Of a stretch of 64,000 bases of DNA, positions 1 through 19,900 are shown in pieces. Position 1 is the first letter of the stretch, and the number at the start of each line of letters is the position of its first letter. Position numbers and translations under genes: made by a program. Under the pieces are notes generated by a model. That model made no database searches. It was given only the letters and a program-made list of their open reading frames with translations, and was not told the origin of the DNA. This DNA is from Escallonia rubra (taxonomy: Eukaryota > Streptophyta > Magnoliopsida > Escalloniales > Escalloniaceae): contig JAVXUO010000138.1 in NCBI GenBank assembly GCA_033065855.1, positions 124,001-188,000 on the forward strand, given 5' to 3'.

Positions 1-137
1 CTTTGTTTTACCTATCACTTGTACACGAGTTATGGAGCTAAAAGTGTCGAGGGTAGTAGAAAATGTAGACCATCTTGTGCTTGATTTGATGTAAAGCTTG
101 AAAGTAGGGTAAAAGGCATTTACATGTATTCCTAACC
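1..137 (+). repeat. 3' flank of a further BAHD repeat unit
   Basis: This stretch closely matches the DNA just downstream of BAHD copy 1 (about 9793-9900) and copy 3 (about 16190-16290); for example the run 'gagttatggagctaaaag' occurs in all three with at most one change. It is therefore the 3' flank of another unit of the same array, whose coding part would lie left of the window. A short open frame starting at the shared ATG (MELKVS...) is conserved in all three flanks, but I do not recognise it. The homology stops near position 137, where the large insertion begins. Confidence 0.75.
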
Positions 138-382
138 TACTTTGGTTGCACCCAAGGGCCCAATGTGGGTCCCGTTTTACGCGACATGTTGGCGCAGTCA
201 ACAGTTAATTTTCAACGCTTTGAACCGGTTAAAACGTGCACACGCAAGTCACGTGTATTTTTTCACTTTTTCTACGGTACTTCGTCACTAAGAAATTGAT
301 CTTTACGTAACTTACGACAACGCCTCATCGCGCCTCGGCCGTCACACACCGCTCGTCAATGCACCTTGCCAAGTTGCCCAAG

Positions 383-560
383 GGGGTTGGCCTTGGCCTG
401 CCCTTGAGGGTTGGCCTCGGCCACCCTTGGAGGGTCGGCCGTGGCTTGGAGGGTCGGCCTTGGTTTTCCCTTGGGAGTCAGCCTCGGCCTTCCCTTGGGG
501 GTCGGCCTCGACCTTCCCCTAAGGGTTGATTTTGGCCTTCCCTCAAAGATTGGCTTGCCT
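383..560. repeat. Degenerate ~25-30 bp minisatellite
   Basis: A unit resembling 'gggtcggcctcggccttccc' recurs about six or seven times with substitutions and small length changes. It lies inside the GC-rich insertion and contributes spurious proline- and glycine-rich open frames on both strands. Confidence 0.7.
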
Positions 561-869
561 TCCCCCATTGCTTGTTCTCCACCTTGACCTTGCGTCATCC
601 GTGCGCTGTATCCGGGACGTACGTTGCCCGCAGTTGCGCGCCGCCTCTGCGTCGCCGGCGGTAATGCACCTGGACACATGTCGTCGCCCGCGGTCACGCG
701 CCGTCTCTATGACGCCCGCGTGCCGACTCCGCGATGCCAGTCGCACGCTGTCTCCGTGACACCAGCCATCGCCTGTACACCGACTCTTTGGTGCCCGTCG
801 TTCGTGGTCGCACGTCTTCTCCACAACACCCGTCGTCAACGACCGTGCGCCTTCTTTGTTACGCGTGCC

Positions 870-1560
870 CACGCGCCGCTCATGCATCACGTGCCCCTAG
901 TACGACATCGACTTCCGCAATAGACGTCGTCGTGCCCACGCGCCGCTCATGCGTCATATGCCCCAAGCTAGATGCCCACTTCTGGGACAGACACCGCTGT
1001 GCCCACGCGTCGCTCATGAGTCACGTACCCCCGGCACGACGCCTACTTCTGCGACAGACGTCGACGCGCCATGCGCCGCTCATGCATCACGTGCCTCTGG
1101 CAGGACGCTTACTTCTGCGACACCAATCGCCCGCGCCCATGAACTGCTCATGCGACACTTGCCCTCGGCTTGACGCCCACTGCTGCGACAGCCATCGCCA
1201 GGACCCATGTGTCGCTCATGCGTCACGTGCCACCGGCACGATGCCCACTGCCACGACAACCATCACCCGTGTCCATGCGCCACTTCCATGACATATGCCC
1301 CTGGCATCAGGTATTATCTCGCAATAGAGGTCGCTGCACCCATGCGCCGCTCATGTGTCACGTGCCCCCGGCACGACGCCCACTTCGGCAACTGTCGTCT
1401 CATGCACCCATACGCCACTCCCATGACATGTGCCCCTGGCATTTGGTATTATTTCGCGACTGGTCGCTGCGCCCATGTGCCAGTCTCATGTCTCGTGCCA
1501 TTGGCACCGCGCCCATGCGCCACTCTTATGTTACGTGCCCCTGGGCACCACATTCATTCA
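870..1560. repeat. ~67-bp GC-rich minisatellite, about 10 copies
   Basis: The landmark 'gccgctcatg' or a close variant recurs at about 876, 943, 1010, 1076, 1144, 1212, 1280, 1347, 1414 and 1480, a steady spacing of 66-68 bases. Each unit continues with a 'cacgtgcccc' type block and a 'cgacgcccacttc' type block. A last partial unit lies at about 1520. More decayed versions seem to extend left to about 620. The period is not a multiple of three, and the open frames across it are not convincing proteins. Confidence 0.8.
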
Positions 1561-1580
1561 CCACACCATGCGCCCCCGCC

Positions 1581-2035
1581 ATGGACGTGGAACATGTTTC
1601 GACCCACTTTTCGAAATGTGCAGTATTCCAAGGGGCTCTACTCGTAGTGCTCCGGCATGAGGACCGTTCGCAGCGGGATAAGCTCGCTACCACAGAAACT
1701 ATCTCCGCTTGGGGCGGCTTGCATGACACTAGGCACGCCTGAGCTATGACCACGTCGCACTCACGTTACTGGTGATCGTCGACTCCCGCGCCTATTCTTC
1801 ACACCCTGTGCACCCGCCATGGACGTGGAATATGCTTCGACCCATTCTCCGAAGTGTGCAACATTCTGAGGGGCTCCGTTTGCAGTGCTCCTGCATGAGG
1901 ACCCTTCGCAGCGGGATAGGCTCGTTACCATAGAATCTATCTCCGCCTGGGGTGACTGCATGACACTAGGCATGCCTGAGCTGTGACCACGTCGCACTCA
2001 CGTTAGCGATGATCACCGGCGCTCCCAGGACGATG
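1581..2035. repeat. 238-bp tandem duplication
   Basis: Copy A begins at 1581 and copy B at 1819, both with 'atggacgtggaa'. They share further blocks such as 'gcagcgggata', 'catgacactagg' and 'gaccacgtcgcactcacgtta'-like sequence. The two copies differ at roughly one base in eight by eye, so the duplication is not recent. Confidence 0.8.
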
Positions 2036-2392
2036 ACCCCCGGGTCACTTTAAGACGGGAGCAGGTCTTTAGAGGGCATCGTGCCTAGTCCGCCTGGCAA
2101 TTGGGCACATGGAGCCTCCCTCACCACTATCACGTTCTCTCCGCGTCTCTCGATGCACCCTTGTGGGATTCAGTAAAGGCCTTGACCGATGGCTAGGGCA
2201 AATACTTACTCTGATCATGTCGACGTTGTGTGGTCAATATTTTCAGACAAGCAAAGCAACGTTGTATGAGGCAGATAGAGCGAATATGGGAACCGACAGT
2301 CCAAAGGAGCACCAGTATTTGTGGACCCCCTGGTGACGTGTCACTCCCAGTGGACGACACGTGGCAATTGATGACACATGCATATTTTTGTC

Positions 2393-2400
2393 TATAAATA
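2393..2400 (+). promoter_or_regulatory. TATA box of the LTR-like insertion
   Basis: The sequence tataaata is followed by a leader rich in CT and AG runs (2410-2510). This is the usual arrangement of a plant LTR promoter. No host gene starts directly downstream. Confidence 0.45.
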
Positions 2401-2784
2401 GAGGACGCTGGACTTCATTTTTGACAGAACTTTCTCATTCTGATACAGAGCACTTTCTCACTCTAGCTAGAATCTAGAGCTCTTGAATTCTAGAGAGAGA
2501 AACACAGTTGTATATAATCTTGAACACAACACTGGACCGTGACGTTGGACCCTGACTTGGATCTTAGCTTGGACTGTTGACTGTCGGCCATGTTCGTCTC
2601 AGCCTTGTCTCTACAGCATTGTCACTCTTCACGGCCTATCTGGGAAGCCTTGCTCTCTGCCCTTACTCCACCCTCACTGTGTCTCACTTTGTACATCTGA
2701 CAGCTGACACGAGCTATATTTTTTGTGGCACGTCCACGTAATTACGAACCCACTTTCTGTGGCATCAACTTGTTTGGCAGCAAA

Positions 2785-3409
2785 ATACTTTTGTCATCAT
2801 TGGTAATAATCGCCATTGGAAAAATATGCATGATTGGGATTCTTTAGGTGACAATAAGCGGTCGTTATAGTTGTAGACATTATCACTTTTTTATAACTTT
2901 TGGTGGCATTTGAGATAACAAAATAAGAGCATTTTAAGTAAAGTTTTGGGGCCAATGACGCCAAACTCCATTTGATGTCAAGTTTTGTTCTTTTAAATTA
3001 GGACCGTAGACCATCACAAGTACTCGAGCTCGACTTAGCTAGTGTTTGCTTGCTTAGAAGCTTTTTCAAGATCGTCAGGCAAGATAGATGAGCTGAACTT
3101 GAACGCAAAAGTTTAAGCTCAGCTTGATAAACGTTATTCTATAAAACTCGAATTCGACTCATTCAAAAGCGGTTTGAGAGTTTTGACAATCTAAACTTGA
3201 TTACAATTTCAAACTCAATATAAAAATGAAAATACAAGTAATATATACGGGAAGTGCAAATTACGCTAAAAACAAGTGCAGTCATTTTTGTTAACCCCGT
3301 GGTGTTTTTTCCAAACAGAGATATTTTGGGTAAGCAAGTGAAATTCTTTGAACCAAAATTGGTCATAAACGGATAAACTGATTGGCCACCCTGTGTGTGT
3401 AAGCAAACC
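2785..3409 (+). repeat. Duplicate of the DNA upstream of CRP1
   Basis: This 0.6 kb runs parallel, with about 75-85% identity by eye, to 16310-16953, the intergenic DNA between BAHD copy 3 and the CRP1 gene. Shared landmarks include 'aatgacgccaaactccattt' (about 2953 here, 16490 there) and 'cataaacggataaact' just before the start codon. Together with the tail at 1-137 it shows that a block running from the end of a BAHD unit into CRP1 was duplicated. Position 3171-3290 is unmatched AT-rich sequence. Confidence 0.8.
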
Positions 3410-3501
3410 ATGGACATGGTTCTTCTTCCCCCACCTCTCCCCACCCGCTTCCATCCAATCAACTTCAACTCCTCATTCCTCACCACCTACCACCCCTCTC
3501 G
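3410..3501 (+). pseudogene. 5' fragment of a duplicated CRP1-like PPR gene
   Basis: From the ATG at 3410 the frame gives [14 protein letters not shown] and continues for about 23 codons, nearly identical to the start of the intact gene at 16954. After 'tcattcctc' the sequence jumps to 'accacctaccacccc', which in the intact gene lies about 165 bases further on (near 17197). Both places share 'ttcctc', so an internal deletion through a short direct repeat explains it. All similarity ends near 3500, about 60 bases before the monooxygenase start codon. It cannot make a functional PPR protein. Its promoter might now lie upstream of the monooxygenase remnant. Confidence 0.85.
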
Positions 3502-3564
3502 GTATTAATGGTCTGTTTGAACTCTTTGTCTCTTTACTCATAAAAGTACTCTTCTGGACCAAAA

Positions 3565-6500
3565 ATGGAGAAACAGATAGCCATCATCAATGCCGGAATC
3601 AGCGGCCTGCTCGCATGCAAATACGTACTCGAAAAGGGCTTCACTCCGGTCGTTTTCGAGGCCCGAAGCGGCATTGGTGGCGTTTGGTCCCAAACCATAG
3701 ATCTAGAGTCCACCAAGCTCCAGACGCCCAAAGGTTACTACCAGTTTTCAGATTTTGCATGGCCAAGTTCGGTGAGAGAAACATTACCCGATCATAACCA
3801 CGTGATGGAGTACCTCCAAGGCTATGTTCTCGCCACTTCAACCTCCTGCCTTTTATCAAGTTTAATACTAAGGTTGTTGCCATCGATTACGTTACCAGCT
3901 CGTCCGGGGGTGAAGGCCATTTTTCGTCATCTTGGGAACCGTAGGGTGGCACTGGAGAAGCCTTCTCATCTAGGGGAAAATGGAACGTTGTTGTAGAGGA
4001 AGTTCACCTTTCCTTTAGAGACACCAAAGGTATTTTGCTGTCTCTGTCCTTTGCTTCCATTTTGAGGAATTCTACTGCTCAGACTACAAGATCAACAGAA
4101 AAGCATAGCTCAATTGACTTTGCCACAAAAGTTTGTCGCTTTAGTTTTTGGCAATAGGGATGAGCACTTATAGCGACATCTCTAAAGCTGGAGCAGCACC
4201 TCTAGTGTACCTATCCCAAGATACAGCCGTGTTAACTACGTTGTAGCCCTGATTCGGTTTTTTAGTTTAAATAGGATCTTTATTAAGAAAAATGAGAACA
4301 AACATTTAAGAGATTGTCACTAGATGTACTGGAAAAGATGTCCCGTAAGACCTTTAGAGGTGGAATTAATGTGGAATTGGTGCAAAAAAGAGCTCATATA
4401 GAATCTAGAATTTGGTTATATATGACGTCACATAGTAATGCATGACCGTCTTATCTAAGCACAAAAAGGGTAGTGCATATACTGATTTTACAGTGCATTA
4501 GAAGAAGGATTTTCAGCTTCTCCATATTTTCGTCATAAAAATGAAATTAACTTAGTACTGCATTTTTCAAAGTTAATCGTCAATGTCAATAGAAAACTAG
4601 GAAAAAGAATTAATTTGAATAGTACTGAGGCTGAGGTATAATTTTGATGTTCTTAATTATCTATAGATTTGGACAATATAGCAGGTAAACCAAGTAGATT
4701 TTGTGATCCTGTGCAATGGCAAGTTCAGCGATCTGCCACGCATACCACATTTTCTGGTAAACAAAGGACCAGAGGCATTTCATGGCGAGGTCATACCCTC
4801 CATGGATTTTTTTGGGTAATAGGTCATTTTATTACCAATGAAAAGCATCATAGTCCATATACAATCCTATTTTCAACTATCAAAATACTAAAGAAAGCAA
4901 GCTATCTACAATTATCCATTTTGCAACACCATTAGAGGTAGTTCCCAGTTTTGGCAGAGTTGCAAGTTTGTGGTAGATTTTGCTATCTTCTTCCAGCTTA
5001 GGACTCTGTGTAGGATCCATTTCTGAATGTTTGCTAGAATCTCAGCCCTCCCCTTATGACTCCCAGTGAAAATCCTTTGATTCCTTTCTTCCCATAGGGA
5101 GTAAACTGTGACAGCCAAGGTTAATTTACTTAACTTGGCTCTAAAACTCTTCCCCCTAAAATTGTTGCATGCATAATGCAGGAGTTGAGACCATGTATTG
5201 AACTGCCTTGTAACTTGCAGTTTATTTAGAACCTGCTTCCAAATCTCCTTGGTCATATTACATTCCATAAACAGATGCTCCATTGTTTCCTGTTGTTGCT
5301 CACACAAGCTGCATTGGTCCTCAGCTATTATGTTCCATGCCTTTAGCTTGTCTTTAGTCTTCAGTCTTCTTTTGCACACCAGCCACAGTATAAAAGCACA
5401 CTTTGGGATGTATCCCGAAAACCATACTATCCTCCACCAACTCACAGCTGGATTATGATTTCGGATAGCATGCCAGGCCGAATTGGTGTTGAATTTTCCA
5501 CTAGGGTGAGGTAGCCATTGTATTGTATCCTCATTCTCTGTATTAATAGATAAGTCTGGGAGTTGGCTATTTAGCAGTCTCAAATCTGGTGATCTTCTAG
5601 GTATATTCCACATGCCATGCACCAGCATTTCACTCACCTTTAGTTCCAAAGAACTTGCAGCATCATACAGTATCCTCATTCCATATTGATTGACAATAGG
5701 GCCATTAGGTAGCCAATTATCAAGCCAAAAACAAGTCTTGTTACCATTCCCAATTTGATATGCTATGAGTGGCTGTATCTTACCTCTGAGCTGAATAAGC
5801 TTTCTCCAAGTCCAGGATAGATTAGCTGGTGGTTTGAAAAACCAGAGATTTTGATCTTTGATTATATATGCTATGAGTGGCTGTATCTTACCCTCCATGG
5901 ATTATGCTGCAATGGACAAACTTCGTGCCGTTGATTTCGTGACAGATAAGTTGGTCACTGTTGTTGGATCTCAGAGATCAGCACTGGATGTCGCAGCGCA
6001 AGTTGCTAAAACAAATGGTAGGCGTATCTACCAACTACTCGGGACACCTACCGAGTAGTTTGATTTTAATGTTTGCAAGGAAAAACTGAGCCAGCAAATT
6101 ATTCAGCACAATTTTTCTTTCTTTTTGGTGGGGGGAGAGGGAAGGTAAGAGTCAGTGGCAGAAATGATAAAGAAGATACTAATATCCAAGAAAACACGGG
6201 GAGGTGGGGGAGTTCACTGTTTTGTCGCTATAGAGGAGATCCTAATATGAAAGTCTTCCTCGATTCATTTAATTTATCAATCTGCCCTTCCATAAAAGAG
6301 TTATCCAAAATTTATCTGTGTCAATACAGTTGAGGAGAGGTCTAGAGGTAGCTTTGATGGCATTCTTATCTCATTGGTTAAGAAGAGGTAGCATTGAGAG
6401 GCAGCAACCCTTCCCCTTTCTGTAATAGAGTCGGCTTCTCTATTTTCATGGCATAGAAATACGAGCATATAATGCAGGATAAGTGTTCAATACTACGTGA

Positions 6501-6708
6501 AATGGAAGAAGATGTGATGAACTGGGAAAATGCCATGAGGCGCTACGCTTGCAAGCGGTACAAAAGAACTTGTGTTAGCGTCTTGCTTCAGATTTACTGC
6601 AATGATCAGCTATGCACGGACATGGGGTGCAACCCAAGGAGGAAGAAATGGTTTCTTTCGGAGCTGTTTGCTCCTAATGGTCCTATGGATTACGCCGTCC
6701 TGACTTGA
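3565..6708 (+). pseudogene. FMO1-like flavin-containing monooxygenase pseudogene
   Basis: Family: plant FMO1-type N-hydroxylating flavin monooxygenases (FAD and NADPH dependent). Exon 1 (3565-4029) starts [20 protein letters not shown]; the FAD motif GxGxxG reads NAGISG, so its first glycine is lost. A frameshift lies near 3830 (after LQGYV), after which the family sequence resumes as [12 protein letters not shown], and a TAG replaces a tryptophan codon near 3949 in the WGGTGE stretch. Exon 2 (about 4675-6017) encodes [15 protein letters not shown] and, after an inserted LINE, SMDYAAMDKLRAVDF. A last exon (6479-6708) encodes the C-terminus ending in FAPNGPMDYAVLT. The middle exons, about 200 residues, are missing; 6018-6478 shows nothing recognisable. 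The gene is dead through several independent lesions. Confidence 0.9.
4809..5888 (-). mobile_element. 5'-truncated L1-type LINE in the FMO pseudogene
   Basis: The minus strand carries an open frame (4912-5898) ending a LINE ORF2: a reverse-transcriptase zinc-binding (zf-RVT) domain with WWRIVWFSGYIPKCAFILW and the CSLC...EHLFMEC cysteine/histidine cluster. The element is flanked by a perfect 15-bp target-site duplication, taccctccatggatt (4794-4808 and 5889-5903). A short T run after the left copy is the remnant of the poly(A) tail, so the 3' end is on the left. Only about 1.08 kb of a usual 5-6 kb LINE is present. The frame is still open, which suggests a fairly recent insertion. A 27-bp segment near its 5' end occurs twice (5758-5784 and 5867-5893). 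Confidence 0.93.
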
Positions 6709-7230
6709 CACATAATGATTTTACAGGTCATCAACTGATAGTGTGTCTTATGAAGAATCCTATTAAGTGAATCGCGGTTGATTTCTTTGTTTCGTATGGA
6801 GTTCGAAGTCTCAGTACAAACAAGTAGGCATAAAGCAGTCAAAACTCTTGGCCTCTGACTTACATTACAATGTAGAAAGCAACACTACACGAGCCACTGA
6901 TATGAGGCAGAGAATGGCACTTTCTGTAAGTGGAGAATATAGAGTGGGGTATCAGTCCAAGAGCCTTGCTTAGCCGAGAGGAATATGGTCACATTATTAG
7001 CTTGTTCTTATCTTTGAAGACAAGAAAAACACCACCATTGCAGAAGAATGGACCTTTAACTAATTTGTCATGATGTGATTGCTTTTATGTGCTCCATGCA
7101 ATGGACAATCAAGGCGGCAGTAGTACCTTCACAATCCTAGAACAGAAAAAGATTCTCAGTCCTATAACAATTTGCCTTCTTTTGGAGTTCTTGCTTTAAA
7201 CTTCCTTAATGTTTATGAAATTGCACTAAA
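6709..7230. other. Intergenic, nothing recognised
   Basis: AT-rich DNA after the monooxygenase remnant. I see no gene, no clear repeat and no match to the BAHD units; the shared BAHD flank begins near 7235. Confidence 0.5.
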
Positions 7231-8100
7231 GTTAATTTGTCTATAACAATAGCATTGTTGAGCTAAAGCGTGCAAACAATTAGACTACTGCCCCTTTTTA
7301 ATCAACATGAGCTGAAGTACAACGCTCGTTTGATTTCGTAAATGAAACTTTATTAGAAATTACGGATCAAGTAACTATACTACAATAAGTTAACTTTACA
7401 TGTTTAAATTGTATTCTAAGTTCCTCCAAAAGATTGAAGTCGACCAAATTTAATTTGTAACGCGGATAGAGTAAAATTTGGTTCGAGGGTACTAATAGCA
7501 TTCACATGCTAACCGCATCAAGTACCTAAAACTTTTAACCGGGGTTCCTTACAGAAAAGTTCGACCACGGATAACGTATTCACTGACCAAACCCTATGCA
7601 TGATGATGAGCTCCATTGAGAGTGACGGGTAAAATAAGCTTAGGGCCAATGTCATATTGGGCTCATGCTTGTGGTGCAGTGGCAGCTGCGTCATGGACAT
7701 TGGTCACTGTAGCAGTGGTGCCAAATCGGCTAATATCTTACCAGTACAGCCTCTGTTCATGATACAGATCGAAGGAACCTTTCATGAGCATTTGTTTACT
7801 ATGAAATGATGCGCAAGAGATATAAATCAAAGCACCATTCCAATTGAAAGGGAAAGCTTCAGCCATTTGAAATGTGAAATTATTACATCTCTACAAGCCA
7901 TTTGAAAAGCTTTTGACCAGATTGGACATTGACCTTAGTATAGTATTTTCCCGCCAAGGAACAAACGCCAACCTCCAGTGTCTATGGAATATGACTTCCT
8001 CCCATGCGCTAATTTCAAGGGGGACTTGCACTTTTGTTGTCTGGAAGGATTCCATCTCTCAGCAAAGCTGAACAAGACAAGATTGAAGTATCTAATTAGA

Positions 8101-8180
8101 TGCTTCAATCGTGGAAGTGTTGATCTTATCAACTTCAGGATGCTTCAATCTTGGAAGTGTTGATCTTATCAACTTCAGTA
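8101..8180 (+). promoter_or_regulatory. 40-bp promoter duplication with palindrome, BAHD copy 1
   Basis: Two adjacent 40-bp copies (8101-8140 and 8141-8180) differ at two positions. Each contains the perfect palindrome-like motif gttgatcttatcaac (8119-8133 and 8159-8173). Units 2 and 3 have a single copy at the same place, 10-20 bases upstream of the TATA box, so the motif is a good candidate binding site. Confidence 0.75.
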
Positions 8181-8186
8181 TGTGCC

Positions 8187-8196
8187 TATATAAATA
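8187..8196 (+). promoter_or_regulatory. TATA box, BAHD copy 1
   Basis: tatataaata lies about 70 bases upstream of the start codon at 8266, in the same position as the TATA boxes of copies 2 and 3. Confidence 0.75.
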
Positions 8197-8265
8197 AGAC
8201 TAATTAACTAGCAGTGTGTACCCTTGTGATTCACATTAAACTCAACTAATCGGGCAAAAGAGAAG

Positions 8266-9742
8266 ATGTTGAAGGTTCAAGTCATTTCAAACGAGAACGT
8301 GAAACCATCTTCTCCAACCCCACATAACCTAAGAACCTATAAACTCTCCCTCTTGGATCAGCTAATTCCAGCTCCTTATGCTCCCCTTGTCTTGTTTTAT
8401 CCCAATCTTGATGGTGCTCGCCATCTCCAAATTCTAGAACGATTAGTGGTGTTAAAGCAATCACTTTCAGAGACCTTAACTCGCTTTTACCCTCTTGCGG
8501 GGATCATCAAAGATGACCTTTCTCTCGAATGTAACGACGAAGGGGCTCATTATGCCGTAGCCGAGGTCAATTGCCATCTGGCTGATTTCCTAAGCCATCC
8601 TGATCTGCACTTGATTCTTCGGTTCCTTCCTTGTGCACCAAGTTTCAATAAATCTGGTACAGGAACCCGCGTGACTAATTAACATTCAGGTACCCTTGTG
8701 TCAATGCATTAAGATCTGTAGTATGAATCTTGATAGCCTTTCTAGTAATACTTTTTTCAAAACATTCATGCACGTATGGACTCTCGAACCTAATTCTTTG
8801 AGCCTTCACTGCAGGTAAATGTTTTTGAGTGTGGTGGGATTGCCATTGGGTTGCGCATTTCGCACAAGATTCTTGATGGAGCTTCACTGAACACATTCCT
8901 CAAAGGGTGGGTTACCACAGCTCGTGGATCAGAAGACGTTGTATATCCTGATTTTACCGCGCCTTCTCTCTTTCCCGCAAATGATTTGTGCTTTAGAGAT
9001 TCATCAAGGGGAATGTGGGGTTCTTTTTCCAAGAAAGGCAACTGGATCACAAGGAGATTCGTGTTTAATGCCTCAGCAATATCCGACCTCAAGGCCAAGG
9101 TTACTGAATCTGGTCTAAAACATCCTACGCGCGTTGAAGTGGTCTCAGCTTTCCTCTGGCAGTGTGCTATGGCTGCGTCGCAGGAGAAATGTGGGTTCGC
9201 GAGGCCTTCTCTTCTTACTCACACTGTCAACCTGCGTAGAAGAACAGCACCAAATTTGTCGGAGTATTCCATCGGAAACTTGATATGGATGGCTAGTGCA
9301 AAATGCATGGCCAAGTATGATCAATCACTGGGCGTACTACATGGCTTGGTGGATCGGGTACGAAAAAGTATATCGAACATCAACGAAGATTTTGTGAAGA
9401 CGCTGCGATCCGATGAAGGGACTGCTGTGATGTGCAAATCCGTGGAACGTATGGTCGATTTTGGATCGAAAGAGGAAGTGGACTACTTTGTGTTTACTAG
9501 TTGGTGCAAGTTTGGATTCTGAGGCTGATTTTGGATGGGGAAAGCCCATCTGGGTGAGCAGTGTTGGTAACTCGGGTGGTTCAGTGTTCGTAAATGTCAT
9601 CATACTGATGGATACAAGATGTGGGGAGGGAGTTGAAGCATTGGTGACCTTGGATGAACCAGAAATTAATATACTCGAACGCAACGTTGAGCTCCTAGCG
9701 CTTGCTTCATTAGATCCTTGCCCTCTGGAAATTGGTAACTGA
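8266..9742 (+). pseudogene. BAHD acyltransferase copy 1, pseudogene
   Basis: Two exons as in copies 2 and 3: exon 1 8266-8689, intron 8690-8814, exon 2 8815-9742. The protein has the BAHD catalytic motif HKILD and, further on, DFGWG, and resembles vinorine-synthase-like (clade III) acyl-CoA-dependent acyltransferases. Two lesions break it. Near the end of exon 1 the intact VTNIQ codons are interrupted by four extra bases (8677-8682 region), giving a stop directly after VTN. Just before DFGWG two bases are missing near 9520, where intact copies read GFYEADFGWG, giving an early stop. The rest stays highly similar to copies 2 and 3, so inactivation is recent. The promoter still has its TATA box and a doubled upstream motif, so a transcript may exist. 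Confidence 0.9.
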
Positions 9743-11247
9743 GTCATTGCACCAATCCACCCATATCTGCGTAAGGGAGGTGAAGGGGTCTTTTGATATA
9801 CCGATCACATGTACACAAGTTATGGAGCTAAAAGTATCCATGGTCGTAGAAAATGTAGACCCTCTTGTGCTTGATGTAAAGCTTGAAAGTAGGGTGACTG
9901 GCGGCGATCGTCACTAAAAAAATACGCATGATTCGGGTCTTTGGGTGACAACAACATTAGCATCTAGCCATAGTTATAGTTATGGCTACTATCACTTTTT
10001 TAATAACTGTTGGTGGCGTTTGTGATTACAGTGTGATGAATGGTTGAAAAGATAAAAAAGTGATAAGGCAAGTAAAGAAGGTTTGAATTGTAAAAAGTAG
10101 TTCTCCTGTGGATTTGACAAAGCATTTTGCCTCACCAAATCTTTTCAAGAATTTTACAAATTCTCTTTCATATTACCAAATATTGGATTTCATTGTGAAG
10201 TATTTTCAAATTCTCAGCCAAATTAAAATTATCAGTTAAAATACATCATCCAAACATATCCTAAAAGTAATGTGCTATTAACAATAGCGTTGTTGAGCTC
10301 AAACATGCAAAAAATTATCCTCTGCCCCTTTCTAATTAATACAAGGCGAAGTACTATTGCCCCATCGAGAGGTAATTAGATACGTTGATACAGATCAAGT
10401 AACTATAGTGTACTAGGTCAACATTTACATGTTGAGATCCTATTCTAAGTTCCTCCAGAAGATTGAAGTCGACCAAATTTGTAAGACAGATAAAACTTTT
10501 AAAGAAAAGTTCAACCACGGATAACGTACTCACTGACCAAGCTCTATGCATGATGAGCTTCATTGAGAGTGATCAATGGGTAAAAGAAACTTAGGGTCAA
10601 TGTCATGGTGGTCCCATGCTTGTGGTGCATCGGCAGCTGCGTCGTGGACATTGGCCACTGCAACAGTGTCCTAATGGTGGTGCCAAATCGGCTAATATCT
10701 TACCATTATAGTCTCTGTTCATGATAAAGATCGAAGGGTTTGTCAAACCTTTCATGACCATTTGTTTACTATAAAAATGATGCGCAAGAGATATAAATCA
10801 AAGCACGGTTCCAATTGAAAAGGAAAGCTTCAGCCGGCGACAACTTTTCCTTCTGATTCACATTGTAATCCAAGTCCAAATGTGAGATTTTTACATCTCT
10901 ACAAGCCATTTGTAATGCTTTTAAGCAGATTGGATATGGACCTTAGTGTACTTGCCTGCTTTGGAACAAACGTCAACCTCCAGTGTCTATGGAAAATGAC
11001 TTCCTCCCATGCGCTAATTTCAAGTGGGACTTGCACCTTTGTTGTCGAGAAGGATTCCATCTTTCAGCAAAGCTAAAGTAAGACAAGATTGAAGCATCTA
11101 ACTTTGGAAGTGTTGATCTTATCAACTTCAGTCTATGCCTATATATATAAGACTAATTAACTAGCAGTGTGTACCCTTGTGATTCACATTAAACTCATTG
11201 TGTTCTTTTCTCTTCCATCAACTTCAACTAGTCAGGCAAAAGAGAAG
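9743..11247 (+). repeat. Spacer between BAHD copies 1 and 2
   Basis: 9743-10050 is the BAHD 3' flank shared with 1-137 and 16170-16440. From about 10066 ('caagtaaagaaggtttgaat') it matches the DNA directly after copy 2 (12736 on), and from about 10271 it is the upstream flank of unit 2. No gene is seen apart from the promoter of copy 2. Confidence 0.8.
11112..11150 (+). promoter_or_regulatory. Core promoter of BAHD copy 2
   Basis: The motif gttgatcttatcaac (11112-11126) is followed by a TATA box, tatatatataa (about 11139-11150), roughly 100 bases before the start codon. The leader has a 28-base stretch (about 11195-11225) absent from copy 1. Confidence 0.7.
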
Positions 11248-12728
11248 ATGTTGAAGGTTCAAGTCGTTTCAAACGAGAGCGTGAAACCATCTTCTCCAAC
11301 CCCACATGACCTGAGAACCTATAAACTCTCCCTCTTGGATCAGCTAATTCCGGCTCCTTATGCTCCCCTTGTCTTGTTTTACCCCAATCTTGATGGTGCT
11401 GGCCATCTCGAAATTCTAAAACGATTGACGGTGTTAAAGCAATCACTTTCAGAGACCTTAACTCGCTTTTACCCTCTTGCGGGGATCATCAAAGATGACC
11501 TCTCTCTCGAATGTAACGACGAAGGGGCTCATTACGCCGTAGCTGAGGTCAATTGCCATCTGGCTGATTTCCTAAACCATCCTGATCTGCAATTGATACA
11601 TCTGTTCCTTCCTTGTGCACCAAGTTTCAATGAATCTGGTACAGGAACCCGCGTGACTAACATTCAGGTATCCCTTGTTTTGATGCTTAAAGATCTGTAG
11701 TTGTAGTATGAATCTTGAAAGCCTTCCTAGTAAAACCTTTTTCAAACATTCATGCACGTATGGACTCTCGGGCCTAATTCTTTGAGCCTTCACTGCAGGT
11801 AAATGTGTTTGAGTGTGGTGGGATTGCCATTGGGTTGTGCATTTCGCACAAGATTCTTGATGGAGCTGCACTGAACGCATTCCTCAAAGGGTGGGCTACC
11901 ACGGCTCGTGGATCAGAAAAGGTTGTATATCCTGATTTTACCGCGCCTTCTCTCTTTCCCGCAAATGACTTGTGCTTTAGAGATTCATCAATGGGAATGT
12001 GGAGTTCTTTGTTCAAGAAAGGCAACTGGATTACGAGGAGATTCGTGTTTGATGCCTCTGCAATATCCGACCTCAAGGCCAAGGCTAATGAATCTGGTTC
12101 AAAACATCCTACGCGCGTTGAAGTGGTCTCAGCTTTCCTCTGGCAGTGTGCTATGGCTGCGTCGAAGGAAAATTGTGGGTTCACAAGGCCATCTCTTCTT
12201 ACTCACATTGTAAACCTGCGTAGAAGAACAGCACCAAATTTGTCGGAATATTCCATCGGAAACTTGATTTGGGTGGCTAGTGCAAAATGCATGGCCAAGT
12301 ATGATCTGTCACCGGGAGTGCTACACGGCTTGGTGGATCGGGTACGAAAAAGTATATCGAAAATCAACGATGACTTTGTGAAGACGCTGCGATCCGATGA
12401 AGGGACTGCTGTGATGTGCAAATCTATCGAAGGAACGCACGATTTTAGCTCGAAAGAGGAGGTGGATTACTTTGGGTTCACTAGTTGGTGCAAGATTGGT
12501 TTCTATGAGGCTGATTTTGGATGGGGGAAGCCTATATGGGTGAGTAGTGTTGGTATCTCGGGTGGTTCAGTGTTCATGAATCTCATCGTACTGATGGATA
12601 CAAGATGTGGCGAGGGAATTGAAGCATGGGTGACCTTGGATGAACAAGAAATGAATATACTTGAACGTAATGTTGAGCTTCTAGCACTTGCTTCATTAGA
12701 TCCTAGTCCTCTAGAAATTGGCAGTTGA
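11248..12728 (+). CDS. BAHD acyltransferase copy 2 (vinorine-synthase-like)
   Basis: Acyl-CoA-dependent BAHD acyltransferase, expected in the cytosol, transferring an acyl group (often acetyl) to a hydroxyl or amine of a specialised metabolite. The true substrate cannot be read from sequence. Exon 1 is 11248-11667 (140 codons, ending VTNIQ), intron 11668-11798, exon 2 11799-12728, in phase; total 449 residues, normal for the family. The catalytic HxxxD is HKILD at about residues 157-161 and the structural DFGWG lies at about 379-383. The N-terminal part has the clade III pattern of LSLLDQL followed by FYPNLDG and LTRFYPLAG. It sits between a dead copy and a second intact copy with the same promoter layout. 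Relative to units 1 and 3, about 310 bases are missing right after its stop codon. Closest named relatives by memory are vinorine synthase and stemmadenine acetyltransferase. Confidence 0.93.
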
Positions 12729-13722
12729 GTGATTGCAAGTAAAGAAGGTTTGAATTGTAAAAGGTTGTTCTCCTATGGATTTGACAAAACATTTTGCCTC
12801 GCCAAATCTTTTCTAGAATTTTACAAATTCTCTTTCATATTACCAAATATTGGATTTCATTGTGAAGTATTTTCAAATTCTCAGCCAAACTAAAATTATC
12901 AGCTAAAATACAGCATCCAAACATATCCTAAAAGTAATGTGTTGATAACAATAGCGTTGTTGAGCTAAAACATGCAAAAAATTATCCTCTGCCCCTTTCT
13001 AATTAATACGAGGCAAAGTACTATTTCCCCGTCCAGAGGTAATTAGATACGTTGATATCATCATATGTTATTTCATTTCGTCAATAAAACTTTATTAAAA
13101 ATTACAAATCAAGTAACTCTAGTGTACTAAGTCAACATTTACATGTTGAGATCATATTCTAAATTCCTCCAAAAGATTGAAGTCGACCGAATTTGTAAGA
13201 CAGATAAAACTTCTAAAGAAAAGTTCAACCACGGATAACATACTCACCGACCAAGCTCTATGCATGATGAGCTTCATTGAGAGTGATCGATGGGTAAAAG
13301 AAGCTTAGGGTCAGTGTCATGGTGGTCTCATGCTTGTGGGGCATTGGCAGCTGCGACAGTGACCTAATGGTGGTGCCAAATCGGCTAATAACTTACTATT
13401 ATAGTCTCTGTTCATGATAAAGATCGAAGGGTTTGTCAAACCTTTCATGACCATTTACTGTAAAAATGATGCACAAGAGATACAAATCAAAGCACGGTTC
13501 CAATTGAAAGGGAAAGCTTAAGCCGGCGACAACTTTTCCTTTTATTTTACATTGTAATCCAAGTCCAAATGTGAGATTATTACATCTCTAGAAGCCATTT
13601 GAAAAGCTTTTAAGCAGATTGGATATGGACCTTAGTGTACTTGCCTACCTTGGAACAAACGTCAACCTCCAGTGTCTATGGACAATGACTTCCTCCCATG
13701 CGCTAATTTCAAGTGGGACTTG
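12729..13722 (+). repeat. Spacer and upstream flank of BAHD unit 3
   Basis: The sequence follows 10066-11028 closely, at an offset of about 2.67 kb, up to the point where a solo LTR interrupts it. It lacks the 3' flank block found after copies 1 and 3. No gene is seen. Confidence 0.85.
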
Positions 13723-14440
13723 TGTTAGAAATAAAGGCAGTATGTAGAAACTGGACTGAAGATGCCTGAGTCGAATGCGTTGCACTCTTTCCTTAAGACA
13801 GTATTTGCTCCCTTATAATCTGCTTAGGGTAGCAGCAAATCTGCCTCCCAAGATAAAACAGGCGAAACTATGTTGATCACAGCAGAATGCAATCAACAGA
13901 CAGAAATTTGAGAGAGAGCAAGAGAGAATTCGAAGTGAAGTTGTATGTTCTGACCATCAGCCTATTTATAGACACCAAAGGGTGCTTTGAACAGGTGCAA
14001 ACAGTTGTGGCAGTTAAGTGGTGCAGTTGTCATTTCGAATTAATTGTCGCAAAAGTTAAGGCTGGGCTCGGGGCGAGGGCTCCTAGCGACGATGCGCGCA
14101 CGTGCGAAGTGCGCCTAAAAGCGCCAATAGCGCCTTTAGGCCGCCGCCGCCGTCGCGCGTGTGCAGTGCACCGCACATGTGCAAGTGCATGGCCATGCAT
14201 ACCATGTGTTTCTAGAACAATATGGTATGTCACATGTCCATTTAAATACCCTTAACTTTTTCATTTCCCAAGCCATGTGGGAACCCACTTCATGATTAGT
14301 TTCAACCTTATTAAATGTCAATGTTTGAGAGTTAATATCTCTCAAACCAATCATTCAATTTGATTGATTCTTTTTGCATCTTATTCCTTGTAGTACAAAC
14401 TTTAATAAGGTAAGAATCAATTATTGGAAAATTTCCAACA
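13723..14440. mobile_element. Solo LTR (Copia-like) in BAHD copy 3 promoter
   Basis: A 718-bp element begins TGTTAGAA and ends TTCCAACA, the short inverted ends of a plant LTR. It is flanked by a perfect 5-bp target-site duplication, acttg (13718-13722 and 14441-14445). The uninterrupted site is seen in unit 2 near 11027, where the two flanks are continuous. A TATA-like tatttata near 13970 fits an LTR promoter. No internal coding region remains, so it is a solo LTR left by recombination between LTRs. The intact duplication and clean ends suggest it is younger than the BAHD duplication. Confidence 0.92.
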
Positions 14441-14523
14441 ACTTGCACCTTTGTTGTCCAAAAGGATTCCATCTTTCAGCAAAGCTAAAGTAAGACAAGA
14501 TTGAAGCATCTAACTTTGGAAGT

Positions 14524-14562
14524 GTTGATCTTATCAACTTCAGTCTGTGCCTATATATATAA
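14524..14562 (+). promoter_or_regulatory. Core promoter of BAHD copy 3
   Basis: The motif gttgatcttatcaac (14524-14538) and a TATA box tatatatataa (about 14552-14562) are the same as in copy 2. The solo LTR ends about 85 bases upstream, so distal control elements of this copy have been pushed 723 bases away. Confidence 0.7.
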
Positions 14563-14659
14563 GACTAATTAACTAGCAGTGTGTACCCTTGTGATTCACA
14601 TTCAACTCATTGTGTTCTTTTCTCTTCCATCAACTTCAACTAGTCAGGCAAAAGAGAAG

Positions 14660-16164
14660 ATGTTGAAGGTTCAAGTCGTTTCGAACGAGAGTGTGAAACC
14701 GTCTTCTCCAACCCCACATGACCTGAGAACCTATAAACTCTCCCTCTTGGATCAGCTAATTCCAGCTCCTTATGCTCCCCTTGTCTTGTTTTACCCCAAT
14801 CTTGATGGTGCTGGCCATCTCGAAATTCTGAAACGATTGACGGTGTTAAAGCAATCACTTTCAGAGACCTTAACTCGCTTTTACCCTCTTGCGGGGATCA
14901 TCAAAGATGACCTCTCTCTCGAATGTAACGACGAAGGGGCTCATTACGCCATAGCCGAGGTCAATTGCCATCTGGCTGATTTCCTAAACCATCCTGATCT
15001 GCAATTGATACATCTGTTCCTTCCTTGTGCACCAAGTTTCAATGAATCTGGTACAGGAACCCGCGTGACTAACATTCAGGTATCCCTTGTTTTGATGCTT
15101 AAAGATCTGTAGTATGAATCATGAAAGTCTTCCTAGTAAAACCTTTTTCAAACATTCATGCGCGTATGGACTCTCGGGCCTAATTCTTTGAGCCTTCACT
15201 GCAGGTAAATGTTTTTGAGTGTGGTGGGATTGCCATTGGGTTGTGCATTTCGCACAAGATTCTTGATGGAGCTGCACTGAACGCATTCCTCAAAGGGTGG
15301 GCTACCACGGCTCGTGGATCAGAAAAGGTTGTATATCCTGATTTTACCGCGCCTTCTCTCTTTCCCGCATATGACTTGTGCTTTAGAGATTCATCAATGG
15401 GAATGTGGGGTTCTTTGTTCAAGAAAGGCAACTGGATTACGAGGAGATTCGTGTTTGATGCCTCTGCAATATCCGACCTTAAGACCAAGGTTAATGAATC
15501 TGGTTTACAACATCCTACGCGCGTTGAAGTGGTCTCAGCTTTCCTCTGGCAGTGTGCTATGGCTGCGTCGAAGGAAAATAGTGGGTTCACAAGGCCATCT
15601 CTTCTTACTCACACTGTAAACCTGCGTAGAAGAACAGCACCAAATCTGTCGGAATATTCCATCGGAAACTTGATTTGGGTGGCTAGTGCAAAATGCATGG
15701 CCAAGTATGATCAGTCACTGGGAGTACTACACAGCTTGGTGGATCGGGTACGAAAAAGTATATCGAAAATCAACGATGACTTTGTGAAGACGCTGCGATC
15801 CGATGAAGGGACTGCTGTGATGTGTAAATCTGTGGAACGTGTGCGCGATTTTTGCTCGAAAGAGGAGGTGGATTACTTTGGGTTCACTAGCTGTTGCAAG
15901 TTTGGCTTCTACGAGGCTGATTTTGGATGGGGGAAGCCTATCTGGGTGAGCAGTGTTGGTATCTCGGGTGGTTCAGTGTTCATGAATCTCATCGTACTGA
16001 TGGATACAAGATGTGGCGAGGGAATCGAAGCATGGGTGACCTTGGATGAACCAGAAATGAATATACTCGAACGTAACGTTGAGCTTCTAGCGCTTGCTTC
16101 ATTAGATCCTGCTCCTTTAGAAATTGGTGATCGTGTGATTTTGCAGCAACCCATATCTCCATAA
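14660..16164 (+). CDS. BAHD acyltransferase copy 3 (vinorine-synthase-like)
   Basis: Exon 1 14660-15079 (140 codons), intron 15080-15204, exon 2 15205-16164; total 459 residues. The catalytic motif HKILD (about residues 157-161) and DFGWG are intact. It is over 90% identical to copy 2 by eye, with scattered amino-acid differences such as WCKIGF versus CCKFGF just before DFGWG. The stop codon used by copies 1 and 2 is lost here, so the protein runs on about ten residues (DRVILQQPISP), about the only length difference. Expected role: acyl transfer from acyl-CoA to a specialised metabolite in the cytosol. Promoter sequence near the TATA box matches copy 2, but a solo LTR lies just upstream, so expression may differ between the two intact paralogs. 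Confidence 0.93.
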
Positions 16165-16953
16165 GTGATGTGAGGGGGTCTTTTGATATACCGATCACTT
16201 GTGCACGAGTTATGGAGCTAAAAGTGTCCCTGGTAGTAGAAAATGAAGACCCTCTTGCGCTTGATATAAAGCTTGAAATTAGGGCAAGAGGCATATGAAT
16301 GTTTGATACTTTTGTTGTCATTGGCGACAATCGTCACTAAAAAATTCACAAGATTCGGATACTTTAGGTGACAATAACATTAACGCCTTAGCCGTAGTTA
16401 TGGTTATAACTATTATCACTTTCCTTATAACTATCGGTGGCGTTTAAGATAGCCAAGTAGAACACTTTAAGTAAAAATTTGGTGCAAATGACGCCAAACT
16501 CCATTTGGTGTTAAGTTTTGTCCTTCTAAATTACGATCGTAAACGATCACACCTTCTCGAGCTAGCATTTGCTTGCTGAGAAGCTCTTCAAGCTCGTACG
16601 TAAGGTAGATAAGGTAAGGTCAAATGCATTTAAAGGTTTGTTAACTAGTTAAGCTGAGCTCGATAACTAGTATTCTGTAATATAAAACTCGAACTTGATT
16701 CGCTGAAAATTACGACTCGAGAGTTTAAGCTCAGCACAATAAAAATTATTATAAATAAAACTTAACTGATTTCAAAGCGAGTCAAGAATTTAAAAAACCT
16801 CAACTCATCCCAATTTCAAACTCACTTTACTTTTGTTACTCCTTGGGTTTTGCCAAAAAAGATATTTTGAATTATGGGTGAAATTATTTGAACAGAAATT
16901 GGGCATAAACGGATAAACTCACTAGCCACTGTGTGTGTGAGAGAAAGCAAACC
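16165..16953 (+). other. Intergenic DNA between BAHD copy 3 and CRP1
   Basis: 16165-16300 is the BAHD 3' flank also seen at 1-137 and 9760-9900. The remainder, up to the CRP1 start codon, is the parent or sister of the duplicate at 2785-3409. It includes the CRP1 promoter; no clear TATA box is visible near the start. Confidence 0.75.
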
Positions 16954-19900
16954 ATGAACATGGTTCTTCTTCCTCCACCTCTCCCCACCCGCTTCCATCC
17001 AATCAACTTCAACTCCTCATTCCTCCGCCACCACCACCTCTCCCAACCACCACTCCGCCACCTCGCCGCCGCCGCCGCCCTCCCCCCCGCCACCACCACC
17101 ACCTTATCCCACACCACCACCACCGACGAACACGTAAACGAGGACGAGGACGCCTCCCTCCACACCCCTCGCTACGACTTCACCCCCCTCCTCCACTTCC
17201 TCACCACCTACCACCCCCCCGACTCGCCCTCCCCACCCGACTCGCTCCACCCCACGGAGTTCCAACTGGCCGAGTCCTACCGCGCCGTCCCTGCCCCGCT
17301 CTGGCACTCCCTCCTCAAGTCCCTCTCCACCTCCTCCATCCCCGCCGCCTACTCCCTCGTCACCTGGCTCCAAACCCACAACCTCTGCTTCTCTTACGAA
17401 CTTCTCTACTCCATCCTCATCCACGCCCTCGGCCGCTCCGAGAAGCTTTACGAAGCCTTCTTGCTCTCCCAGCGCCAGTCCTTAACCCCGCTAACCTACA
17501 ACGCCCTAATCGGCGCGTGCGCCCGGAATGACGACCTCGAAAAAGCCCTAAACCTGATGGCCAAAATGCGCCGGGACGGATTTCAATCCGATTTCGTGAA
17601 TTACAGCTTGATTATACAGTCATTAACGCGTAGCAACACAATTGACTGCTCCATGCTACAAAAGTTATACGAGGAAATTGAGGAGGATAAGATTGAGCTA
17701 GATGGTCAGCTGTTGAATGACATTATTGTGGGGTTTGCGAAGGCGGGGGATGTTAATAAGGCAATGTATTTCCTAGGGCTGATTCAGGGGAACGGGCTAA
17801 GCCCCAAAACGGCGACCCTTGTGGCAGTGATAGCAGAGCTAGGGAATTCTGGACGGACAGAGGAGGCGGAGGTCATTTTCGAGGAGTTGAAGGAAGGGAA
17901 ATTGAAGCCGCGTACACGTGCTTACAACGCGCTCTTGAGAGGGTACGTTAAGAGCGGCGCATTGAGGGACGCAGAGTGGATCGTGTCGGAGATGGAGAGG
18001 AGCGGGGTTTTGCCCGACGAGCATACATATAGTTTGTTGATTGATGCGTACGGGAATGCGGGGAGGTGGGAGAGTGCTAGGATTGTGTTGAAGGAGATGG
18101 AAGCGAACAATGTGCGGCCGAATTCGTTTGTTTTTAGTAGGATATTGGCAAATTATCGCGATAGAGGGGAGTGGCAGAGGTCGTTTCAGGTTCTTAAGGA
18201 GATGAAGAATAGTGGGGTTTATCCTGATAGGCAGTTTTACAATGTGATGATCGATACGTTTGGGAAGTACAATTGTCTTGATCATGCGATGGCCACGTTG
18301 GAGCGGATGAGAGAAGAGGGGATTGAGCCTGATACTGTCACTTGGAATACACTCATAGATTGCCATTGCAAGTCGGGGCATCATAATAAAGCAGAGGAGT
18401 TGTTTGAAGCGATGCACGAGAGTGGGTGCTTGCCTTGCACCACTACATATAACATAATGATTAATTCTTTTGGGGAGCAGGAGAGATGGGATGGAGTGAA
18501 AGATTTGTTGGGGAAGATGCAAAGCCAGGGACTTCTGCCCAATGTTGTTACGTACACCACGCTCGTTGATATTTATGGACAATCTGGGAGATTCAGTGAT
18601 GCCATCGAGTGCTTGGAGGTCATGAAGTCTGCAGGGTTGAAACCATCATCGACCATGTATAATGCCTTGATTAATGCCTATGCACAAAGGGTACATTGTT
18701 AGCTCAATCTCATACTCTATTCGTTATTATCTATATGCTTTTGGAGGAGTAACTGTAGAACTGTGGTCAGATGTCAAGTAGCCTTTTTTCATTATTTTAC
18801 AGCACCAATATAGATTAACTCCATTGTTATGTACGCAAAAAGAGGTAGCTTTTAGGTACTCCTGATGATCAAGTATGAGATTTTTTCTTCTGGCTGAAAC
18901 CCTGCTGTAATTCCTATTGGTGGTATGTCAGAGATTAAAATAACTGATGGTACATCTGATCTTATATCTAGATATACTAGCTAGTCACTCTGTTAGGCGT
19001 AACATAGTTAGAGATTGAGGAGATGAAGTATGTCCCTTCATGGAAATCAGCATGTTCTTTTTAACTTAAGTTCCTAGAGGAATGCAGGAAGCCCATAGCT
19101 TATATGTTTCTGCGCTCCAACAAGACCTGAAATGGACAAAGAGGTAAGTAGATTGAAGAGCCAGCATCTGCTGCAGACTACATCACTGCCTTTCCGGTCC
19201 TCGATACAAAATGAGTTAATAAAATTTAATTTTCACCCGATTGCAATGACGATACTGTCCATACGAAGATTTAGTCTCCCTGTTATGTTTTTAGTTTAGC
19301 AAAATTCCAGGTGAAAACTTGAACACCTAAACATGGACCTTGCTCATGGTTTTTGCACTCATTTGGCTTGTGAAAAGATGTCTACTTAATCTCTAGTTCT
19401 GTACTTAATATGTCACTTCTGTTCTGTCAAGATATCCTTTAGCGCCTAGGAACGAGGAATGGTTTGCTTCCTATACATGGTAGGCTTATCCTTCTCTTGA
19501 GCAATGCTTTGGGGTTGGATCTTGGTCTTATATGCCTTACGTCATAGTCCATCTCTCGTTTAGTTATCTTATCTTGAGCATACTTTCTGGTTGACTCCAG
19601 GTGTTATCAAAGAGACCCCCTATAAACTAGTGATAATTCACAAGGCTGAATAACAATTATTCTGATTAAAAAAAACATGAATGAGACAACCAGGAACCGC
19701 TTTATGCTTTTGACTTTGAGCTTACCAGACTCAACTTTCTGTCAAGAATTGTGATTTCAGTTTTGCTATGACTTGTCTTCCTGTGATATATTTTGTTTTT
19801 GAACTTTAGGCTATAACCTTGTTCTTGTTTTCTTCTTAACAGGGACTGTCTGAGCAAGCAGTAAATGCGTTTAGGGTCATGAGGGGAGATGGCCTAAAGC

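Follow-up and report, generated by a model that had tools for sequence, protein, structure and literature searches.

How did the left edge of an acyltransferase array come to carry the flank of a BAHD gene and the start of a PPR gene, both of which recur at its right end? The window considered here is a stretch of 64,000 nucleotides, positions 124001-188000 of contig JAVXUO010000138.1 (534,030 bases) of Escallonia rubra, and the setting of the locus is a plant-type nuclear genome. I analyzed the window together with 40 kb to its left and 10 kb to its right. Negative coordinates lie left of the window, with 0 at contig position 124000. The genome searched comprises 566,129,122 bases in 3222 contigs, and in the whole-genome DNA search simple repeats and very frequent words are passed over. 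CRP1 and FMO are provisional labels taken over from the preliminary description; the domains found here are PPR and FMO-like.

Repeated flanks and a BAHD gene beyond the window edge

It had been proposed that positions 1-137 and 2785-3500 repeat DNA found farther right, and that the missing BAHD gene should end shortly before position 1. Both proposals held. In a self-comparison, positions 2-127 match 16182-16302 downstream of BAHD3 (82.5% identity) and positions 2-110 match 9792-9895 downstream of BAHD1 (86.2% identity). Positions 2785-3498 match 16306-17042 with 71.4% identity over 763 columns (E 1.2e-94), and the match reaches the first PPR codons. Against -39999 to 0 plus 5000-64000, the best scores were 130 bits for the left-edge piece and 344 bits for the 2785-3500 piece, far above the maxima of 31.9 and 40.1 bits from 100 dinucleotide shuffles per query. 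In the whole-genome DNA search each piece gave 3 matches, itself included, every one of which lies inside this cluster. As far as this search reaches, the similarity is specific to the locus and is not that of a dispersed repeat.

The first exon of the PPR (CRP1) gene lies at 16954-18702 on the plus strand, with its ATG at 16954 (Pfam PPR_2, E 3.1e-80). The only other genome match of this exon at E<=1e-60 is 39% identical. The copy at 2785-3498 (plus strand) contains the DNA 5′ of the gene and its coding start, as described before; the "first codons" of that description can now be given as about 27-30 codons. The counterpart of 1-127 plus 2785-3498 is 16165-17042 on the plus strand, which consists of the BAHD3 3′ flank and the PPR gene 5′ part. 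What separates the two left pieces is a dispersed repeat at 128-2784, absent at the equivalent site (16302/16306). When this 2.66-kb repeat is removed, 1-127 and 2785-3498 become contiguous, as they are in 16182-17042. Across the genome the repeat has at least 100 matching pieces, with 40 of 6655 first-look candidates scored, and no clear target-site duplication was seen by eye in its ends. Within it, positions 864-1515 hold imperfect repeats with a period of about 67 bases.

The predicted gene, BAHD0, lies directly left of the window edge and ends 48 bases before position 1. Its gene model has an open frame of 449 amino acids in two plus-strand exons (-1526 to -1107 and -977 to -48), and its 3′ flank is cut by the edge, with positions 1-127 inside the window. 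The region from -1720 to 127 aligns with the BAHD3 region (14454-16302) at 91.5% identity over 1865 columns. A tblastn search (E<=1e-3) of the 40 kb left of the window found no additional BAHD copy. Thus, a gene outside the window had been predicted correctly from a reading of the raw sequence.

The four BAHD copies

All four copies are on the plus strand. BAHD1 (8266-9763; exons 8266-8689 and 8815-9763) is broken, with a frame break in both exons. BAHD2 (11248-12728; exons 11248-11667 and 11799-12728) is open over 449 amino acids, and BAHD3 (14660-16164; exons 14660-15079 and 15205-16164) over 459. The profile search, made with BAHD3 only, found the Transferase family (PF02458) in exon 1 (E 4.8e-24) and exon 2 (E 2.6e-44). 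At about 16128-16164, the TGA stop shared by BAHD0, BAHD1, and BAHD2 is CGT in BAHD3, which results in an extra tail of 10 residues. A 40-base unit in two tandem copies (8099-8178) lies immediately 5′ of BAHD1.

PMC3123328 gives HXXXD and DFGWG as BAHD motifs and an IKPSSPTP-like motif for clade IIIa, the vinorine synthase type. HKILD, an HXXXD motif, and DFGWG are present in all three intact copies, as is VKPSSPTP, whose first residue differs from IKPSSPTP. On this motif, the intact copies are putative members of clade IIIa. YPLAGI and QVNVFECGG are also carried by BAHD0, BAHD2, and BAHD3. Vinorine synthase (PDB 2bgh) is the best match of BAHD3 exon 2 among solved structures (E 1.8e-33), 3 of which match at E<=1e-10. 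The BAHD3 exon-2 protein gave 97 matching rows genome-wide, 5 of which are the four copies themselves (BAHD1 accounts for two rows); outside the cluster, the top-scoring match is 46% identical. In a protein tree with 8 BAHD outgroups from the same genome (8 of 10 candidates; 2 with an open frame of <=380 amino acids were omitted), the four copies form their own long branch of 0.55 changes per column.

In all three intact pairs, the per-site frequency of nonsynonymous changes is below that of synonymous changes (Fisher p 3.6e-4, 8.8e-6, and 1.1e-5), and dN/dS is 0.33-0.37 across them. These values are signs of purifying selection in BAHD0, BAHD2, and BAHD3. Since their frames are open, their motifs are conserved, and dN/dS is in this range, these three genes probably encode working acyltransferases.

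Junctions, FMO copies, and inserted elements

From left to right, the locus has an AMP-binding enzyme gene, FMO, BAHD0, the PPR 5′ part, a second FMO copy (FMO′), BAHD1, BAHD2, BAHD3, and the PPR gene. The AMP-binding enzyme gene adjoins the left FMO at -9717 to -8218. The two copies of the stretch that starts with FMO are adjacent and in the same orientation with one joint, which is the arrangement of a tandem duplication.

That joint, J0, lies at 3486-3520, where the CRP1 5′ part meets DNA from upstream of FMO. The CRP1 alignment ends at 3498/17042, and the alignment with DNA upstream of the left FMO starts at 3520, equivalent to -7250; by eye, a weaker likeness begins at about 3497 and on the left side reaches about -7303. 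J0 thereby joins CRP1 codon 27-30 or so to a point that precedes the FMO start codon (-7195 in the left copy) by about 55-110 bp. The homology visible at J0 is limited to short stretches, which makes end-joining or template switching its probable origin rather than crossing over between long repeats.

The left FMO copy (-7207 to -3634) matches 3553-7200 in three collinear pieces at 83.8-84.8% identity (BLAST). FMO′ (3553-7200, plus strand) is broken, with a frame that differs from that of the left copy, and it lacks a stretch of about 924 bases that the left copy has. The FMO-like family (PF00743) was found in the first exon of the left copy (E 1.3e-17) and in the right copy (E 4.6e-9). A later exon of the left copy, part of which lies inside the stretch of about 924 bases, scores as FMO-like at E 0.0006, below Pfam's cut-off; 2 further ORFs gave no Pfam family. 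The same stretch holds an ORF that is FMO-like by eye and has no Pfam family. The left FMO is a putative gene. Because the FMO copies are collinear in three pieces and the CRP1 5′ part is joined to FMO-upstream DNA, FMO is part of the duplicated block. The preliminary description took the block to be a BAHD gene plus the CRP1 5′ end; the duplication is supported, and its unit has to be enlarged to include FMO.

The remaining joints lie within the BAHD array. At J1 (10022-10034), pairwise alignments place the BAHD1 3′ flank next to upstream DNA equivalent to -3401. At J2 (12728-12738), the stop-codon bases of BAHD2 adjoin upstream DNA that corresponds to about 10065, and AGTGAT and GCA(AG) are common to both sides. 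From one gene start to the next the distances are 2982 and 3412 bases, and the second, which contains a 718-base solo LTR, shrinks to 2.69 kb without it, in keeping with the unit size of 2.7-3.4 kb given earlier.

Several gaps between the copies result from transposon insertions into single copies. The solo LTR upstream of BAHD3 (13723-14440) has TG...CA ends and a 5-base duplication, ACTTG; its relatives occur on several contigs as paired copies about 5.3 kb apart, indicating full-length elements. It stands upstream of BAHD3 only and could affect BAHD3 expression. A LINE-type fragment at 4807-5868 (minus strand) is found in FMO′ only and has many genomic copies (40 of 281 candidates were scored); it is flanked by a direct repeat, and ORF 4912-5898 on the minus strand encodes a zf-RVT domain. 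Another dispersed repeat accounts for about 670 bases of the DNA upstream of BAHD0 (at least 42 matching pieces; 40 of 711 candidates were scored).

Order of the duplications and related loci

I read the locus as an ordinary, well-preserved series of local tandem duplications. In the reading that I consider quite likely, FMO, BAHD, and the CRP1 5′ end were copied as one local tandem block, after which BAHD was duplicated locally. The ancestral order would have been AMP-binding enzyme, FMO, BAHD, and PPR. The block would have run from the FMO gene through the BAHD gene into the PPR gene, ending near codon 27-30, so that its copying would give AMP-binding enzyme, FMO, BAHD0, and the PPR 5′ part, followed by FMO′, BAHD, and PPR. 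In the right block, two further local duplications (J1 and J2) would have produced BAHD1, BAHD2, and BAHD3. FMO′ and BAHD1 would have decayed later, and transposons would have entered single copies. It is part of the same reading that FMO′, at its birth, received PPR 5′ DNA and the first PPR codons just upstream. That FMO′ then ran for a time under the foreign PPR promoter before its decay, which would make it a fossil of promoter capture, is a tentative idea and rather doubtful.

How far does divergence date these steps? BAHD2 and BAHD3 are the youngest pair: their silent K is 0.054, 33 of 37 informative sites pair them (the other 4 pair BAHD1 with BAHD2), and a deletion of about 60 bases is common to both. 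Their dS is 0.077. Silent K is 0.140 for the block split and 0.133 for the BAHD1 split, and the difference of 0.006 has a bootstrap 95% interval of -0.017 to 0.030 (830 silent sites); on the 643 noncoding sites alone it is 0.015 (95%, -0.012 to 0.046). Thus, silent divergence does not distinguish these two splits. The earlier statement that BAHD multiplied after the block duplication therefore stands for BAHD2/BAHD3 only. The protein tree likewise gives a three-way split of the BAHD copies. In unfiltered upstream DNA, which includes poorly aligned repeat-rich DNA, BAHD0 is the farthest copy (K 0.21-0.33 vs 0.15-0.16). Coding dS leans the opposite way, with 0.126-0.137 between BAHD0 and the others and 0.166-0.169 between BAHD1 and BAHD2/3. 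About 250 bases upstream of BAHD1, BAHD2, and BAHD3, absent at BAHD0, were considered as a shared insertion and dropped as a marker of order; since they are found only in this cluster, an insertion in the right block is indistinguishable from a deletion at BAHD0. A gene conversion tract between BAHD2 and BAHD3 ending at the solo LTR was suggested by raw BLAST identities (gene 96.2% vs upstream 87.7%) and was dropped because, with gap columns excluded, the values are 94.4% upstream and 96.6% in the gene region.

The overlap of the two silent divergences, together with the higher coding dS of BAHD1 against BAHD2/3, would also suit a history in which the J1 duplication came before the block, so that two BAHD genes were copied with the block and one of them then disappeared from the left block. 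I regard this order as unlikely. It requires that extra loss, and BAHD0, if it had retained the upstream DNA of the first copy, should there be nearest to BAHD1. This is not so in the filtered proximal upstream DNA (K from BAHD0 of 0.158 for BAHD1, 0.137 for BAHD2, and 0.148 for BAHD3) or in the unfiltered upstream DNA (0.325, 0.212, and 0.237, respectively). Copying of the block before J1 is preferred on structure and parsimony, as no loss is then required.

Divergence is uneven along the block. K is 0.12-0.14 between the FMO copies, 0.17-0.20 between the BAHD0 3′ flank and the flanks of BAHD1 and BAHD3, and 0.295 for the CRP1 5′ DNA, and parts of the block may have different histories. If taken at face value, the contrast between CRP1 and FMO would fit several overlapping events, with the CRP1 5′ part copied at one time and the FMO-BAHD part at another, so that they merely resemble a single block. 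However, one joint with full collinearity explains the layout, and the CRP1 value is inflated by about 200 columns at 56-57% identity, the remaining 100-column windows being at 72-90%; part of this excess is probably replaced sequence. Such separate events seem improbable to me. A misassembly, or the end-to-end joining of two haplotypes, might be suspected in an assembly of 3222 contigs and is very improbable here: about 14% of silent sites and several indels distinguish the copies, beyond what is expected of alleles, and there is no N in the 114 kb read. It is hardly conceivable that a transposon brought the gene pieces here. The dispersed repeat at 128-2784 does adjoin the CRP1 5′ part, but it merely splits a collinear stretch, both pieces are matched at this locus only, which indicates that the repeat's other copies do not carry them, and gene order, introns, and intergenic DNA are kept in the copies.

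Under the preferred reading of one block copied first, the locus combines features of two known systems. In PMC6343889, the AT3 locus of Solanaceae is described as a locally rearranged tandem pair of BAHD genes (AT3-1/AT3-2), of which one is a pseudogene. The present locus likewise has tandem BAHD genes, one of them decayed, and local rearrangement; unlike that pair, it has four copies, and an FMO copy together with the beginning of a PPR gene is found at its oldest joint. In Drosophila yakuba, according to PMC5460883, tandem duplications shuffle regulatory elements and make chimeric structures. Here, too, a duplication boundary inside a gene sets the 5′ part of one gene before another, although this plant-type locus is old, decayed, and known from its sequence alone. 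The locus is thus both a case of tandem BAHD decay and a case of duplication that shuffles regulatory elements. The PPR 5′ DNA in front of an FMO copy appears mildly unusual, and a literature search on BAHD tandem duplication in combination with a gene fragment, unequal crossing over, and a promoter found no report.

What the locus offers is the readable history of one acyltransferase array, a low-homology block copy with smaller copies inside. As an ordinary example of plant gene family growth, it leaves the general understanding unchanged. Its practical value lies in annotation, where the CRP1 5′ part, FMO′, and BAHD1 are not to be labelled as functional genes. A metabolic gene cluster was also considered, as the AMP-binding enzyme, FMO, and BAHD genes are neighbours; the reading of a shared pathway, being conjectural, was dropped. 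Farther left, an ORF with an alpha-amylase domain lies at -26330 to -25293.
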